Shown piece after piece: positions 6,885-26,819 of a stretch of DNA of 64,000 nt (positions are counted from its first letter, which is position 1; every line of letters begins with the position of its first letter). A program made the position numbers and the translations under genes. The DNA comes from Ianthella basta. Taxonomy: Eukaryota > Porifera > Demospongiae > Verongiida > Ianthellidae. The stretch covers positions 9,456,214-9,520,213 of the forward strand of contig OZ025869.1 in assembly GCA_964019415.1 (NCBI GenBank). The letters run 5' to 3'. The notes under the pieces are model-generated. The model saw only the letters and a list, made by a program, of their open reading frames with translations. It did not search any database and was not told the origin of the DNA.

Positions 6885-7064
6885 CACCGTTTTTATCAAT
6901 ATTACATACTAAAGCCATTATTATTACGCTGTATACACATTTAACTGCTATACTATCATTCATTTAGTGATATATAACTATATTACCCACAACAGTCCTA
7001 AGTTCATTGTACATGTACACGCACATATATTATACCATTACATATAACCTTTCAATTTTTCTAG
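6885..7064. other. AT-rich spacer with candidate 3' splice site
   Basis: No coding signal. The stretch ends in a pyrimidine-rich tract and AG that would serve as the acceptor for the first visible exon of the P-element-like gene. Confidence 0.35.
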
Positions 7065-7325
7065 ATACACCACTGGTGCTCCAGCAACTCATTGACTATG
7101 TCAACGTTTACATCCTAGAAGATTTCCAGCAATACGTGGTGCTGGTGTTTGATGAAATGAAGATTAAGGAGAAGCTTGTTTACAACCACAATTCAGGTGT
7201 ACTACATACACATGTACATATGAAGGCAAATCATTTAATTGCAGAATGTATTATTTTAATTGCAATTTGATATTGTGACTCATCAACATGATGGCATGTA
7301 TGTTCACGTAGAGTGCGTGCTGGTA

Positions 7326-9701
7326 TTATGGGACGGTATGAATTAAGGGACACTTACACCAATTTTGAAACTCACCCTTGTAAAACATTGACTGATACCT
7401 AGGGATCACGCGGCACGCTACAGAATTTGGCAAAGTTATATTCGAGGAGAATAAAACTAGTAGAAACTGGGTCCAAATTTTTGACGTATGCGTGACTACT
7501 TATCCGCGTTAAGGAGAACGTCATTTGGAAGACGTTTCATGTGCGAACCGTGTCAAACTGCCTGGAATTGCTAAAAAGTATTCTATGAAGGTAGGTCGAT
7601 CGTTGTTGCTGTATGCTTTTGATACTCCATAGCCTACCAAACCCTTTTGTACAAAAGGGGTGCGTAGGTAGACTATGAAAGTGACTACTGCTTTCCTCTA
7701 GTTTCTAGGTGTTCCCAATGGCCACCAAAGGAAAAAAGCGAAAACTGTGGAGTCCAGAAAGTATGATAGCAGCTGTAGATGTGGTCGTCAATAAATCCTG
7801 TTCTTTGCGGGAAGCACATAGGCGATACAATGTGCCAATTGAGACTTTGAGAAGGAGAGTGGGTGGTTAGGTTGATATCGACTGTAGACCAGGACCACAG
7901 ACAGTGTTAAGCAAGGATGAAGAAAGTCGTTTGGAAGAGTATTGCATCGAGATGGCTGATCGAGGATTTGGTCTTAGTAGAGAAGACGTGATGCGGTTTG
8001 CATTTCAAATTGCAGAGAAAATGAAGAAACCTCACCCATTCCATGATGGGTGAGGTTGGACGTGGCTGGTACGAAGGGTTTTTAAGCCGTCATCCTCGTC
8101 TCACTCTTCGTTCTTCTCAACCACTGTCTCGCTGCAGAGCAATAAGTTCAAATGAAGATGTCATTGCAGATTTCTTTGCCAAGTTGGGAGCTCTGTGTGG
8201 CCGATTGAATCTGTTCACAAAGCCAATGCAAATATACAACGTAGATGAGACAGGTGTTAACATTGTTCACGTTCCAGGAAAGGTTCTCACAGAAATATCA
8301 CGAAAACATGTGTATTCTTTGACATCAGCTGAAAAGGGAAGAAACCATACGGTTGTTATTTGTGTCAATGCGGCTGGGTCTGCCCTGCCCCCTATGCTAA
8401 TCTACCCTCGCAAGAAGCCTGTTCCTGAGCCATACCAAGAAGGAGCCCCTGCTGGCTCAATTTTTAAGATCTCCGAAAATGGGTGGATAAATAGTGAGCT
8501 GTATCTGGAATGGCTGCAATTTTTATTGACCAAATTTCACCTGCTCGACCAGTTCTGATAATCCAAGATGGTCATACTTCACATGTGTCAATCAATCTTA
8601 TTGAGCTTGCCCGTGGAAATGGCATATACCTTCTATGCTTGCCGGCACACACTACTCACATTTTGCAGCCACTGGATGTTGGTGTATTCAAATCATTTAA
8701 ATCACATTTCCACAAGGCCTGCAAGCAGTATACAGGGGAAATACCAGAACAAGTTGTCACTGTAGATTTCCTGGCATCCCTCGTAGGGAAGGCATGGTCA
8801 CAGTCCTTAACACCAATTAACATAATGAGTGGTTTCCGAAAGTGTGGAATATACCCACTGAATCCTGGTCAGATTGATGACAGACAACTGGCACCTTCCA
8901 AAGTGTTCAGTAAATCTGCTGAAGAATTGGAGAAGCCAAGTGCTAAGAGCACTACCATCCGATTTACAGAGAAAGAGGAGACACTTTATCAGAAACGGTT
9001 CGAAGAAGGGTACGATGTCCCTGATCCAAAGTACGAAGCGTGGGTGTCACTGAACCATCCTGCATCGTGTACATCTAGATCTGATGTTAGCCCTGTTGCT
9101 AATCCCAAATCGCTACCAAGTAGCACTACTACATCATCTGATGTGCTCAGTGACCTTCTGTCACTCCCTCTACCTCAACAATCTTCCAAAAAGAAAAAGG
9201 CCAGCGTGAACAGCAAAGCTGTATGTATAACTGATGAGAAAATTCTTGAGGAACTAAAAGGCAAAGAGAAAGAGAAAGCTGAAGCAGAGGCAAAGAAAGA
9301 AAGAAAAAAAGAAGAGAAAGTGAAGAAGATGAGAGATGTAGAGAAACTGAAGAAGAGAACAGATAAAAAACAAATGAGCAAGAAAGCTGGAACGAAAGAA
9401 ACCTCAAGAAAAGACAGTCATACTTGACACTCTATTTGAAGCCTTCCACATCTCCGACAATGATGAAGATGTTGAATGTCCTGTATGCAGGCGTGATTTG
9501 GAAACTGCTCGTTGGATATGCTGTGATAAATGTGACACTTGGTACCATATTCAGTGCACAAGTGTAAATGAATTTGATATCCCAGCTATGTTTTTTTGTG
9601 ACTCTTGTGTGTAAGTGTGTATTGTCTCTTCTTGATAATGTTATGGCAGCTGTTTAAAAGATTTATTGATGGTGTCTCATAATTCATACATTGTCCCATA
9701 A
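7326..9701 (+). mobile_element. pogo/Tigger-type DNA transposon with PHD-finger C-terminus
   Basis: The ends are imperfect inverted repeats: left TTATGGGACGGTATGAATTA, right (reverse complement) beginning TTATGGGACAATGTATGAAT. The left end is preceded by TA, as expected for Tc1/mariner-pogo insertion; the right flank reads TG. The element contains one transposase pseudogene (7718-9614). It lies between the first and second recognisable exons of the P-element-like gene, so it inserted in an intron. A small GCCTACC.../...GTAGG hairpin lies at 7629-7678 upstream of the ORF. Confidence 0.65.
7718..9614 (+). pseudogene. pogo/Tigger-type transposase with C-terminal PHD finger
   Basis: The start ATG at 7718 opens a psq-like helix-turn-helix (SPESMIAAVDVVVNKSCSLR, then RRYNVPIETLRRRV). 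The DDE core follows: YNVDETG (first Asp), VLIIQDGHTSHVS (second Asp), then CLPAHTTHILQPLDVGVF (third Asp region). A Lys/Glu-rich coiled stretch precedes a PHD finger (ECPVCRRDLETARWICCDKC, then DTWYHIQC, then CDSCV) ending at TAA 9612-9614. Inactivating changes: TAG at 7868-7870, a frameshift near 8043, another near 8540 and another near 9420. Conservation is otherwise good, so the copy is fairly young. Confidence 0.85.
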
Positions 9702-10593
9702 TGTTTACTAACATGGCTTGCTTAAAAACTACTGCTTTGCAGCAAGTAATATGGAAACAGTGAATGAAACTACACATGCAAATAGTTCGAATCTTGAAGG
9801 TATCGAGTACCAACTTTGATCACACCAGACAATTACCACCGGAAGTTATGGTTGCTAATAGCTAGGTGTCTCATAATTGTGGTGCCTACTCTACTTCATT
9901 TATAATTAAAAATTATTACATTATTGAATTTATTAGTGAAATTATTAGCTTTAGTTGACCTTGGCACTGTCAATCAAGAGATTGCAAACATTGCAGGGCC
10001 ACATTCCACCAGTGACGTGCAGGCTGACAGTATGGCCACTCACATGTGTGCATTTATGCTGCGTGGCATCTTTATGAATCTCCTGTTCCCAATGGCTCAC
10101 TATCCTACACAATCTGTCACTGTGACCTGCTATACACCATTGTATGGGAATTGGTTGGAGCTTTGGAAGTCATTGGAATGAAGGTAACCATCCATGCATA
10201 AAGATGGCTGTGCTTGCTTGCTTGCATCTACGTATTTATAGTCTCATGTGGTATCATTATGGTTGATGCCTTATAATAATTGGTTAATTCATTTCTTTTA
10301 TATTACACAAGTGGCCTGCATTGCCTGTGATGGAGCAAAGCCAAACAGGAAGTTCATGAAACTGCACAAGCATCCAGATGACATTAAGCATGGTGTGTTG
10401 TACAGGACGAAGAACATTTATGCAAAAGATGGCCACTATCTGTATTTCATGTCCGATGTTCCTTAGTCTCGCGTAGCCCAGACCGCTTCTCCCCTCCATT
10501 TTTAATTAATGACACCATAGGTCGGGAAGAAGGGTCTGGTCAACAGCCTATACCGTTTTTATTCTGTGTCTCATGGAACCGGTGTCAGTTAAT

Positions 10594-11676
10594 AGTCTCC
10601 CCCATATAAAGTATCCCCCCGGGTAGTTTAAACTATCCGGTGGGTTGTAATTTCCTAGGATATAGTAGCCCACCTTGGGATAGACTATCCCCTTCTAATG
10701 CATTGACTTTTAAGCACCAACAGAGAAGAACCCCGGCGTTTCCACTCCTGTGAAAGCGGTATACGAAGGTAAGAAGTGCCCTAACTGAGTGTACATAGCG
10801 TAGCCGACCAAAGATTGCTGGCCAAATATATGACATCATAATGGAGGGAAAATGTTGACCAATAAGGAAGTGATGGATACGATAAAGGTGTAAGGATCAT
10901 TTTTGTCCAATCAGAAAGTGCTATAGCACAATTGCGCTGGCAAAAATGAGCAACCATGCAGTGGGTAGCATCAGATCTCAGATGGAAAGGAGCAGTGGAC
11001 TGTGGGCTTTCTGCCATTGCTTATGTGACAGATGGTAACTGTCCGACAAGCTACAGGTATGACATCGTGCTTCCTTTTGACAGTCTATACTTCTGGCTGT
11101 TGCAATGACTCTTGACTGTTCTTATATTACAGGTATGACCAGTCACGCCTATGCCCACACTTTCTAAAGTGTGTTCAGGAAAGACGTCTGTCACCCTTCC
11201 CAGCAAAGGAGATTAAAAGTGCCAAATCCTCTAAAGAAATTGCAAGTCAAGCTACACTGCATTTGTAGACTGCTGGAGAATGGGGAGGAGGAGATGGCCT
11301 ACTGTCCTTCCTGCAGTGTGTGGTATCACATCCCTGACATTGTTTTTAAGGACAGTACAACAGCATAGACATGTTCACAGTGTTCTGCATGAATCACTTG
11401 CAGCTACCTTTCCTGTACATATATACCAACATTGACATATTTTCTTGCTTATTATAGTTTTTTACCTAATGATGCTATATTTGATATGCATGCAGTTGAA
11501 GGAGGGTTTATACTAGGACAGCTCATCCCTAGGGATAGACTAAACTGGCATAGAATATCCCCCAGGGGGATAAATATACCAAAGGGGGATAAGATATCCT
11601 AGGACATGCTAGCCCTGGGGGATAAAGTATCCAAGTGTATTTTACTCGGGGGAATAAAATTATGGGGGGATAGAAT
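10594..11676. mobile_element. Nested TIR element with C-rich ends
   Basis: Both ends share an inverted, imperfect pattern. The left end reads AGTCTCCCCCATATAAAGTA and the right end, reverse complemented, ATTCTATCCCCCCATAATTT, each continuing into CCCCCGRGTA. The two flanking zones (10594-10690 and 11500-11676) are full of short GGGGGATA/TATCCCC palindromes. The element encloses the Ulp1/PHD relic. Removing it would leave about 250 bp between the outer TIR and the plus-strand ORF, close to the spacing in copy 2. No clear target duplication was found, so the limits are approximate. Confidence 0.5.
10955..11395 (+). pseudogene. Ulp1-like (C48) cysteine protease C-terminus with PHD finger, remnant
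   Basis: The frame reads WKGAVDCGLSAIAYVTDGN, where DCGLxAIA matches the catalytic Cys motif of Ulp1/SENP-type peptidases. After a short intron (about 11058-11133, GT..AG) the frame joins to RYDQSRLCPHFLKCVQERRL and SPFPAKE. A frameshift leads to HCICRLLENGEEEMAYCPSC and SVWYH, a PHD finger with a TAG stop at 11366-11368 before its last CSQC pair. Ulp1-PHD proteins of this layout are known from invertebrate transposons. The catalytic His/Asp half is missing. Confidence 0.65.
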
Positions 11677-11804
11677 GAACCATGATACCGGATGTGGTAA
11701 ACGATGATAAACATAACCGTGATGCGTACGCGAATTGAAGTGCGAAGCGGATTATAGCGGCTGCGCGTTCGCTCTGATAAGTTGGTCATAGTCTGGTTGC
11801 TGCT

Positions 11805-12745
11805 ATGCTGGATGCCAGCGTGTTGCTTTTGCAAAAAGATGCAAAGAGCAATAAGAAGAAGCTATACAATGAAGTGTGCAGAGGAGAGAGGAAGCTACTA
11901 GAGCAGTTTTTGATCGCTAGCAGCGCGAAGAAGTTGTCAGACGTTGACGAAACAAATGTAGATGATGCTTGGTTGTGCTACAACTGTCAGTCTGCACTGA
12001 ATAAGCTGGAGAAGCTGAGAAAGGATGTACAGGAACTTGAAACTCACCTCTTCACGCTGGCAAGCAGTTTACATCCAGTTTCTCATGAAGCTGAAGTGCC
12101 ATTGGTACGGAAGTGTCCTCCTCCACCATCAGCCACTACAACCAAAGCCTTCTGTTCACAAGTGGAAGATGTTACTGCACAGCTCAGTGGACAGACAATG
12201 AACAACCACCATCAGTAGTAGTGAGTTAACATTAATATTAAGTCTGGCAGTGTTAAGCTCATAGGTGTTGCTATTGAAATACCTTTTTATACCTTGGTGT
12301 GCATGTAAGTGGTTCTGGGCTATCCCTCACAGCCAAAGACATACATGATGCGAACACCCAACAGGCGACGCAGTGTAAAGCGCATAGTCAGACGCAGTTA
12401 CCCTTGCTTTTCGCTGACATTGTCAGGACATCAAGCATTCACAGGAAGCTTATGATTGGGGCTTTAGCCAGGCAAGCGAAGAAAGAGATGAAAGCGATTT
12501 CTTCTAGTGCACTCTTTAGGAATAAGAAGGCTCTTGCCAACTTCTCCTGGACCACTGTTTGGGATGTGAGTAGTGAAAGAAGCTCCTGTCCTGACAACTC
12601 TCCTCAGCAGCCTGGTGACTAAACCAGAGGAGAACAAGGCAATGTTATGCATGGTAGCCAACATGTTTTGAAGAAACACAGCAAGTCGTTGGCATTGGTT
12701 CAGAAATGCATTTCTGTGTTTCTATATGGAAATGGGTGCAGTAAG
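11805..12745 (+). pseudogene. ZAD-like zinc finger / DUF6589-type transposon ORF, N-terminal half
   Basis: The ORF starts near the left TIR once the nested element is removed. It reads DAWLCYNCQSALNKLEKL and RKDVQELETHLF, a CxxC followed by a coiled helix as in ZAD-like fingers. The first CxxC (CCFC) is in another frame just upstream, which implies a frameshift. Later it reads LLFADIVRTSSIHRKLMIG, SSALFRNKKALANFSWTTVW, then after frameshifts EAPVLTTLLSSLVTKPEENK and HSKSLALVQKCISVFLYGN. This resembles the region before DUF6589 in cnidarian and fish transposon-like proteins. The frame meets a GTAAAT donor-like site, then opposing RecQ sequence. The putative catalytic half is absent. Confidence 0.6.
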
Positions 12746-14168
12746 CAGGTAAATATCTAATATAATAAGCATTAAACAATAGTTTGCGCCGACACACATC
12801 AGTATTCTCAACATAAGCTTGCATTTTCTGAAAAGTTTATGCTTTTCTATTCCAAAAGAAAGCAGTTGCAGGTAGACCATCTCTTCCAGCTCTTCCTGCC
12901 TCCTGAACATACTCATCTATTTCAGCTGATGGACCCCAATGAACTACCCTCCGTATGTCAGCGCAATCAATTCCCATCCCAAAAGCTGTGGTGGCAATGA
13001 CTACATGCAAATTTGTCAACTGTGAGCAAAATGACACAATAATTGTTTCTTTCATTGACGTTGTGGATGCTCTAGTGTACATATCTACCATCCTAAATTG
13101 CTGTATATCAAGATAGGATGGCGGTTCAGTGAATTGCTTCTCAAGCTTCTGTACATTTCTGCACAGTCCATGTAGCTGCTGCAAAAATAACAGTTCTCGG
13201 ATGTTGCAATCATTTTTCAGATAGCTCCGATGCCATCTTAGTGACAAATGCTGTCGTGTCTGGCTGTTTAAAAACTGTGTAGAAGATGTTGGGCCTGTCT
13301 GGAGGCAAAGCAATTAGTGCTGGGTTTTGTAGATTTAAGCGCGTTTCCACAGCCCTCAATGTGTCAACAGTAGCTGTTGCTGTCAAAGCTAGAACGTTAA
13401 CATGTGAGGGTATCACACTGCGCAATTCGCCCAAATGTGCATAGGCAATCCTGAACTCATCTCCCCTAGAAGAAACCAGTAGGAAAATAAGTGACATGCA
13501 TACTGAACAGCAATATGACAACTCTATACAGCATCTTCACATCCAAAGGATCGACTGCACATAATATGTGTAACTATTCACGGAATGTCACATGTATGCA
13601 TGTGCTAAAAGCTAAACTAAGTACATCATGCACTGCACTCAACACTAGTCTTCACGCATCATCACATCCATAGAGTCTTGATTGCCACCCACCAAGTTTT
13701 GACACAGTGGGCCTCATCCACAACAAATGCCACCAAGAATTTCTTGTACTGCTCTGATAGCAGCATACTCCTGAATTGGGGGTTGCAAATGATGGTCTCT
13801 GGGCTGATAAACACAAGTTGAACCTCTCCCTTTAGCACTCGCAGAACTGCTTCTTGGTCCTCTTGTGCTTCGTCAACAAACTTGACAGACATGCCAAGGG
13901 GTTCAAACTTGCTTCTCTGGTCTATCATCAGCGACGTCAGCGGGTTTACACACACTACAATACTTCCCTTTCTGCCCAGCACACGATCGAAGATGAGCGG
14001 TAGAGCCGCATAGATGATCGACTTACCGTAGCCCGTTGGCAATGAGACAAAAGTGTCTCTCCCACTCAAAAACGTCCTGATTGCTTCATCCTGCTTCTCC
14101 TTGAATACTCCCACTCCAAACAATCCAGCAACGTCTGAAAGCACTTGCGTAGGATCACTAGAACTCAT
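12746..14168 (-). pseudogene. RecQ-type DNA helicase carried by the TAGTCTCG element (inactivated)
   Basis: ATG at 14166-14168, about 200 bp from the right TIR. Motifs in order: FKEKQDEAIRTFLSGRDTFV (motif 0), LPTGYGKS (Walker A), VVDEAHC (DEAH-type motif II), then after an intron (13677 to about 13465) GDEFRIAYAHLGELRSVIP, LALTATAT (motif III), [30 protein letters not shown] (motif V) and [12 protein letters not shown] (motif VI), then a VCRRKLL-like segment of the zinc-binding tail. The core covers both RecA lobes. At least two frameshifts near 13150-13210 and a stop after WNRKA break it. RecQ enzymes are ATP-driven 3'-5' helicases; here it is part of a transposon, convergent with the zinc-finger ORF. 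Confidence 0.85.
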
Positions 14169-15066
14169 CGTCTTGTCGCTCCTGGCCAATCTGTAAGAAC
14201 ACGACTTTACCATGAATATCGTTATTACCATGGTTACTGAATATTAATGAGCCCCAACTTCCGTAGGGCTCAGAACAAAAACGGTATAGGCAGTTGACCA
14301 GACCCATTTCTTCGCGATTGTGCAATAATATGCACACGAAGAAATAGGGTCTGGAAGCGAGACTAGATTTTCCTTGCCTGATGAAGACCACCAGAAATTG
14401 CTGGTACGCCTCAAGATACGGAGGCTCGAGACTGCTACAGGTTAGTTTCATATATGTAAATCCCTCATTATTTATAAGTATAGTGCATGCAATTACATTA
14501 CACTGTTTCACACTGAAAAGCACTGGCGCACTTCCCCCTCCACATATGTATAGAGAACAAAGGCTGCCATATACTGTGGGACCATTTTGTCCAGGTGTAC
14601 GATAAGACCAGCAGCTCATGTCGATTGTACACCACAAAGATCCAAAGGGAGCATGTTTACTTGACTTCCTTTCAAAGATGAGGGTTAATTTGGTCGTTCA
14701 GGTACATAAACACAAGGAATAACACTATAATTTATGTTGATTGTTGCCAAAGCTGTTCTTTCCATAATACTTTACAGGCACTAAACAAGACAGTGTCAGT
14801 GGCTCTCAAGCACATGGAGCTGAATAGCTCCAGCATTGATGCTCACACCACTGCTAACAGTCAGTTTTGTGAGCTGTTCGACAGTTTCTTTGATTGCCTG
14901 AATGTCAGAGCACCCTGGGAGAAGAGGAAGCCAAACTTGGATCCTTATTGGTGTGCAAGTGACAGGAGATTCAAGGTAAGGAGTATGTGAAGGCACTTCC
15001 AGGGAGACCAACAGACAAGGAGAAGCTACATCTCAGTGCTAAACACGAGAGGGCTTGAAGCGACAG

Positions 15067-25894: not shown

Positions 25895-26131
25895 TAGTCT
25901 TGTACCCAGCCCCACGTCCACCCGCCATTTTCATTTAGGCGAGGTGGGTCTGGGGACTATCTGCAAAATCCTTGGCGTCACCAGCGAATCTCCTGGTGGC
26001 GAATCAAATCGCAGGATTGCCATTTCTTGCGCAACAGTCACATGGTATCATGTGAAAGTCGAATAGGATAGACTCTTACCGCGTGCCAGACAACGTTTTG
26101 CCGAGTGTCTTTTATTGTGAACCAGGCGTAT

Positions 26132-26421
26132 ATGTCGGCCAGCGAAGTTAAAGTAACTGTTTCTTTTTTGAGCAAGGATGTGGAAAAGTCGGAGCTTGAT
26201 GGACTTGTCAGGAAGGTCACAGAAAGTATGGGATATGTCAGCATTAAAGATGATCAACTAGGTGCTGTACTCGCATTCTTACAGGGTAGAGATGTATTTG
26301 TTTCAATGCTGACCGGTAGCAGTAAATCTCTTTGTTTTGTGCTCATTCCTAGTTCTGTGGACTTATTGAGGACCTATCTTGGTATCCCCTACAACGCCCC
26401 GAACTTGAAAAAGCTTCCTTG
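26132..26421 (+). pseudogene. RecQ helicase N-terminal fragment
   Basis: ATG at 26132 is about 235 bp inside the left TIR. The frame reads GYVSIKDDQLGAVLAFLQGR, DVFVSMLTGSSKSLCFVLIP, equivalent to FKEKQDEAIRTFLSGRDTFV and SLPTGYGKS in copy 1. Walker A has lost its second Gly (TGSSKS). After about residue 75 the frame runs into sequence antisense to the opposing zinc-finger ORF and stops at 26419-26421. Confidence 0.75.
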
Positions 26422-26669
26422 ATTCTACGTACAGCCAATTTAAAAGTCTTGTATTTATTAGAAGCAGTCTCCAACAGCTGGCAACAAGATTGGCAAACGA
26501 AATTTGATGTTGTTATACGGGAGAGTCTTTCACTAAAAAGCATTGGCCATATCATCTTCATCAGACTGGACACATTGTCATCCTTGATCAGCGTATGGAG
26601 ATAGCGTCTCTGTCCACTAAGAGCTTGATTGGGGCAAAAATAGCAGCCAGAATTGCGGCTGGCGGGCAT
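26349..26669 (-). pseudogene. ZAD-like zinc-finger ORF N-terminal fragment
   Basis: The frame reads CYFCPNQALSGQRRYLHTLI, a spacer, FVCQSCCQLLETASNKYKTF, KLAVRRIKEAF. Two CxxC pairs (CYFC, CQSC) separated by about 50 residues and followed by an amphipathic helix resemble a ZAD-like finger. Copy 1 has the matching DAWLCYNCQSALNKLEKLRK. The fragment starts about 140 bp from the right TIR and is convergent with the RecQ fragment. Confidence 0.65.
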
Positions 26670-26819
26670 TCTGCCATATCCGCACTAATGCAGGTCAGAT
26701 GCTTAGTACGTGATATTGCGCAATCGGATGCCAAGGATTTTGCAGATAGTCCCCAGACCCACCTCGCCTAAATGAAAATGGTGGGCGGAAGTGGGGCTGG
26801 GTACGAGACTAAGACTTGA

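Follow-up and report, generated by a model that had tools for sequence, protein, structure and literature searches.

The locus at positions 10464-14365 of the window (the 64,000-bp stretch of Ianthella basta contig OZ025869.1 that was analysed) raises the question of what kind of mobile element carries a RecQ helicase gene and a zinc-finger gene between inverted ends, and which of its products moves it. The locus is a 3902-bp element, starting with the octamer TAGTCTCG at 10464 and ending with CGAGACTA at 14365. We read its family as a helicase-carrying DNA transposon with terminal inverted repeats (TIRs), probably AcademH, that moves by cut-and-paste and whose transposase is encoded by the gene containing the Pfam domain DUF6589, and give this reading a probability of about 0.78. 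The copy in the window is a dead, internally deleted derivative, and the full plan of the family is seen in a sibling.

The partnership of RecQ and DUF6589

The sibling, L041, lies on contig C14 and is a 5.4 kb element (L041:1004-6402) flanked by an exact 9-bp duplication, GTGTTCTAG. Its plus-strand zinc-finger/DUF6589 gene, with approximately seven exons by a visual estimate based on reading frames and splice sites, is convergent with a minus-strand RecQ gene. The plus-strand gene encodes, in order, a CxxC...CxxC zinc finger (without a Pfam match), more exons, and DUF6589, which is matched in two exons (3.9e-11 and 3.1e-30, Pfam) and is the sole family above the Pfam cut-off in this gene, and the RecQ gene has matches to DEAD, Helicase_C and RecQ_Zn_bind (Pfam). 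L041 is likewise not intact, due to one stop in the RecQ frame and apparently one in the first exon of the other gene.

A search of the genome for DUF6589 gave 58 matches (one below cut-off), which were merged into 40 loci. RecQ was present within 8 kb at 25 of these loci (19 convergent, 6 on the same strand and none divergent), and 22 of the 24 DUF6589 loci of at least 900 bp had a RecQ neighbour (17 convergent, 5 same strand). Random placement, assuming 7 Mb for contigs of unseen size, gave a mean of 0.62 linked loci over 1000 trials and never more than 5. The linkage count was made with all 150 RecQ matches listed, and a hand-picked subset of RecQ matches, some selected for their nearness to DUF6589, gave the same 25/40. 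The preliminary description of this locus had proposed a TIR family in which RecQ and a zinc-finger protein of the DUF6589 type are paired convergently, and this is supported by L041 and by the 22 linked long loci.

When the 150 listed RecQ matches were ranked, a DUF6589 neighbour accompanied 23 of the top 40, two of the 20 that came next and one of the final 90, indicating that most weak RecQ matches are something else. Dozens of weak matches in the lower part of the list cover RecQ query residues ~34-111 in short frames, and are either another repeated RecQ-like piece or host genes.

Comparison of RecQ and DUF6589 distance matrices over the 12 families in which both proteins were readable showed that the two are correlated (Mantel r=0.706; 0 of 10,000 permutations, the highest being 0.58). 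Trees of the same 12 families have five two-family clades in common (C14+C10, C13a+C3t, C7+C4, C3c+C13b and C3b+C3d). Because the distances correlate across families, RecQ is an inherited part of the element and not a passenger. Gene order can change within this partnership, as C13a is convergent whereas C3t has both genes on the same strand (one family pair). The RecQ exons are under constraint between the window copy and L041, with dN/dS values of 0.16, 0.32 and 0.16 (47 substitutions, 29 synonymous and 18 other), and the zinc-finger exon has a dN/dS of 0.44.

RecQ genes lacking these ends had also been sought as a check on the pairing: among 18 other RecQ loci (L023-L040, of which several are mutual copies), 15 had the exact octamer and three had variants with one or two changes, with the octamers of L037 seeming to be part of a neighbouring short element. 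Octamer ends on an unrelated transposase were not seen among the loci fetched, in the course of which no dedicated search for them was made.

The copy in the window and its insertion site

The features of the window copy, in order along the plus strand, are as follows.

10455..10463, left target duplication GATGTTCCT, 9 bp
10464..10585, plus strand, left end with TAGTCTCG first, ~122 bp in common with L041
10478..10539, plus strand, left-end palindrome CCAGACC...GGTCTGG, 62 bp
10586..11686 (about), nested repeat that is not in L041, with a sub-threshold PHD-finger match
11781..12218, plus strand, decayed frame with the zinc-finger exon of the probable transposase, ZAD-like by eye
12278..12759, plus strand, second exon region of the same gene, homologous to L041:1716-2198
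12760..12775, deletion junction, where ~2.7 kb corresponding to L041:2199-4908, with the DUF6589 core, is gone from the window copy
12837..13313, minus strand, open frame with RecQ exon 3, Helicase_C 1.2e-10
13210..13536, minus strand, open frame with RecQ exon 2 and the TATAT motif, without a Pfam match alone
13662..14168, minus strand, RecQ exon 1 (DEAD domain 4e-16), including Walker A and DEAH
14260..14365, minus strand, right end with CGAGACTA last, inner limit approximate
14298..14354, minus strand, right-end palindrome, 57 bp
14366..14374, right target duplication GATTTTCCT, 9 bp

The two flanking 9-mers are equal at 8 of 9 bases (one mismatch), and the left and right ends match each other in inverted orientation over the octamer and about bases 69-115 of the left end. 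Joining the flanks with a single copy of the duplication leaves one frame open across the junction and the other two closed, which independently supports the element ends and the 9-bp duplication, and likewise an empty site before insertion. The inverted ends and probable 9-bp duplication of the preliminary description were borne out, and a genome search with the left end confirmed that the ends are beyond chance, returning at least 41 matching places including itself (a lower bound, as 40 of 296 candidates were scored).

The host sequence seems to be a decayed P-type transposase gene that was interrupted by the element. A TNP-like RNase H domain is matched at window 6971-7270 (1.6e-5, profile 21-59, Pfam), with a weak match under the cut-off at 9906-10181 (0.15, profile 60-97), and a TNP-like GTP-binding domain is matched at 14682-14990 (1.4e-5, Pfam). 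The remains of this gene lie at 6971-7270, 9906-10463 and 14375-14990, and the two pieces directly adjoining the element are without a Pfam match of their own. Pieces of a DDE_1 transposase, followed by a PHD finger, are located at 8025-9614, between the P-type pieces.

The minus-strand RecQ with Walker A, DEAH and TATAT motifs was correctly recognized from the outset, as shown by the two domain matches above and by BLM being the nearest solved structure (5.1e-17). The zinc-finger/DUF6589 open reading frame (ORF) is seen with its DUF6589 part in L041; in the window copy this part is deleted, the Pfam scan of the zinc-finger ORF gave no match and the first CxxC is out of frame by eye. Relative to L041, the window copy contains two extra stretches: the nested repeat of ~1.1 kb (67 genome matches; boundaries approximate) and, in the alignment, ~140 bp near 13537-13673. 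By eye, the nested repeat has CCCCCATA-like ends. Many of its genome matches begin or end at its base 394, so that it may have arisen by deletion from a longer repeat.

Palindromic ends, one-end copies and end-to-end junctions

Each of 30 octamer ends (22 distinct) consists of the octamer, 3-6 bases, and then a CCAGACC...GGTCTGG pair spanning 24-62 bp, with the motif present in all 22. The general end pattern gave 588 genome matches compared to 0 for the reversed control; an earlier, poorly chosen 10-base end pattern had given a scant excess over its control (280+285 vs 235+276). An ungapped comparison of the palindrome arms was weak (own partner 0.43, other ends 0.36), and the arms were then compared by gapped scoring and DNA folding. 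Gapped scoring of the interior arms of 11 dissimilar ends gave 6.8 for the own partner and 5.0 for other ends (0 of 2000 permutations), showing that the arms co-vary between families. The palindrome seems to be maintained, since arms match their own partner better than the arms of other ends. In folding relative to shuffled sequences, six of the 11 ends reached a z of -2.3 or lower. A second octamer-palindrome end is present in the window at 26120-26811 (minus strand, with the end at 26811), near a frame that by eye resembles a RecQ N-terminus; a partner end with a 9-bp duplication was not found within 9 kb.

Target duplications were scored by script in 14 loci of the same family (the window copy, L041 and 12 more fetched by the left end). 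With one mismatch allowed, a 9-bp duplication was found in 12 of the 14 (9 exact, 3 with one mismatch), and duplications of 8 or 10 bp were found in none. The duplication pair found in L047 belongs to a copy other than the one for which the locus was fetched. L044 and L049 failed the script; by eye, an exact 9-bp copy adjoins a degenerate end in L044 and no copy is seen in L049. All four of the other families tested likewise have 9 bp, being exact in C13 and C6, equal at 8 of 8 readable bases in C3, and exact in C9 when the outer end of a composite is used. There was no clear consensus among the duplicated sequences of 16 sites.

Opposite-strand overlaps among the 100 of 588 end-pattern matches that were listed revealed six one-end copies of 67-84 bp, in which a single palindrome has the octamer on both sides; two further stretches fetched were not such pairs. 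All six are flanked by 9-bp duplications (4 exact, 2 with one mismatch), so that the octamer and palindrome are probably all that is required in cis.

Ends were also found end to end. The arrangement CGAGACTA-N(0-30)-TAGTCTCG occurs 30 times in the genome compared to once for the control, with a gap of 9 bp in 11 of the 30 junctions (9 distinct 9-mers), 8 bp in 4, 10 bp in 2, and gaps scattered from 1 to 28 bp in the other 13. At C1:15270824-15273275 (L046:3325-5776), three different short TAGTCTCG elements lie in tandem with the same 9-mer, GGCTGGGGG, between and around them. The 9-bp gaps and this tandem array suggest that insertion has recurred, in register, beside ends already present. At L055:743-1168 (C9), read together with L031, a 416-bp element and, 9 bp further on, the beginning of a coding copy are flanked jointly by GTCCGACCC, as if the two had moved together.

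The probable transposase, its classification and the alternatives

Three acidic residues of DUF6589 are conserved across the loci in which they could be read. The D of GDNxDK is present in 5 of 6 loci (it was not found in L054, whose stretch stops ~420 bp past the next exon), the D of GGDQLT in 12 of 12 loci in which that exon was read, and the E of DLHxEHxNR in 14 of 14 loci. From these residues we infer a catalytic role, in which DUF6589 probably contains a DDE site made up of the three in that order. The plus-strand product would be the transposase, its N-terminal zinc finger probably binding the element end, each end being the octamer followed by the palindrome. A transposase dimer probably binds the palindrome and inserts the ends at target positions staggered by 9 bp. 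The probable task of RecQ is to open or resolve either the palindromic ends or intermediates of repair. Cut-and-paste movement, the active-site residues, binding as a dimer and the function of the helicase are all proposals. No relatives of DUF6589 were confirmed in viral contigs or prokaryote genomes, and two matches to PHROGs (E 0.09 and 0.29) were dismissed.

AcademH is reportedly a group of the Academ superfamily, said to have been described by Kojima in 2020 (Mob DNA 11:15). The nuclease of AcademX is an XPG nuclease, and no match to any nuclease was seen in the ten pieces of L041 that were scanned with Pfam, introns and spacers being outside the scan. According to the portion available of PMC10045372, duplications are 9 or 10 bp in AcademH and 3 or 4 bp in AcademX, the lengths being tied to the helicase and the nuclease. 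The elements described here resemble AcademH, as presented in that portion, in encoding a helicase and in having 9-bp duplications. Since helicase, duplication length and the absent nuclease match agree, the family is probably AcademH, as judged by these three features from second-hand descriptions.

Other known groups fit less well. KDZ (Kyakuja-Dileera-Zisupton) and Mutator-like elements have TIRs and duplications of similar length, and RecQ is atypical of both. Pfam includes a KDZ model, and no KDZ or MULE match was found in the same ten L041 pieces; the placement near Mutator or KDZ that was initially considered is thus not supported, and the best literature match is AcademH. Helitrons, which also encode a DNA helicase, have no TIR and no target duplication and encode Rep with a Pif1-type helicase. 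They were rejected due to the TIRs, 9-bp duplications and RecQ found here, with no Rep domain in the scanned pieces. In the extracts available, AcademH and KolobokH are treated as helicase sources (PMC10799480), and KolobokH is a DDD/E transposon with RecQ, Kolobok-1_CCri having RecQ on the complementary strand (PMC9587614). To the extent of those extracts, KolobokH is like the present family in placing a RecQ helicase in a DNA transposon. Kolobok was rejected because its target duplication is TTAA, instead of which varied 9-bp duplications are found here.

Several results weigh against the proposed transposon with DUF6589 as transposase and RecQ as its partner. Fifteen of the 40 DUF6589 loci have no listed RecQ match nearby (13 shorter than 900 bp, one of 1020 bp at C2:5203931 and one merged two-piece span at C2:9315231), and there are no more than 10 RecQ_Zn_bind matches genome-wide, of which 6 lie next to DUF6589. 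The RecQ and DUF6589 trees disagree at deeper branches, and their common C3b+C3d clade is weakly supported (0.76, 0.78). Folding was at best slightly better than that of shuffled sequences in 5 of the 11 ends (L027 -1.8, L035 -1.7, L036 -1.4, L037 -1.2 and L030 +0.4), and an RNase H fold in DUF6589 was not shown by a profile search of solved structures, whose one match (E=0.6) was dismissed. The RecQ-less loci, together with the abundance of RecQ-like matches (at least 150 in the genome) and the variable gene order (6 of 25 pairs on the same strand), would also be consistent with RecQ being a captured passenger in some copies of a DUF6589 transposon. This is highly improbable given the correlated distances over 12 families, which speak strongly against it, the 22/24 linkage without a divergent pair, and RecQ dN/dS values well under 1.

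It is also improbable that DUF6589 is an accessory DNA-binding protein in an element whose movement is replicative and driven by the helicase, or depends on a transposase acting in trans. In favour of this are the putative status of catalysis by DUF6589, the helicase in the element and the excess of end-to-end octamer ends; the TIRs with 9-bp duplications and the open frame over the joined flanks are un-Helitron-like, the scanned L041 pieces contain no Rep domain, and gaps of exactly 9 bp in 11 of 30 junctions are expected of stepwise insertion. That the family is a separate superfamily, like AcademH only in its helicase and 9-bp duplication and not a member of Academ, is a doubtful proposition with more in its favour: the word DUF6589 was not found in the literature searched for it, the DUF6589 exons match no Pfam transposase family, and KolobokH, in the extract seen, is a case of RecQ recruitment in a different superfamily. 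Against this, the helicase and 9-bp duplication fit the second-hand description of AcademH. A more specific version, which we put forward tentatively and regard as unlikely, is that DUF6589 transposases form a distinct superfamily acting on palindromic ends with a co-inherited RecQ, in which one terminus, octamer with palindrome, is symmetric enough to serve as both ends, making the 67-84-bp one-end copies mobile, and in which further copies preferentially insert next to an end already in place, keeping the 9-bp register.

A helicase-carrying TIR transposon, probably AcademH, gives DUF6589 (PF20231), a Pfam family of unknown function, a likely function as a transposase. The correlated divergence of the two proteins shows that the RecQ helicase has accompanied a DNA transposon over the long term as a partner instead of as cargo, and the 67-84-bp copies provide a minimal substrate for direct tests of the roles of the helicase and the palindromic ends.

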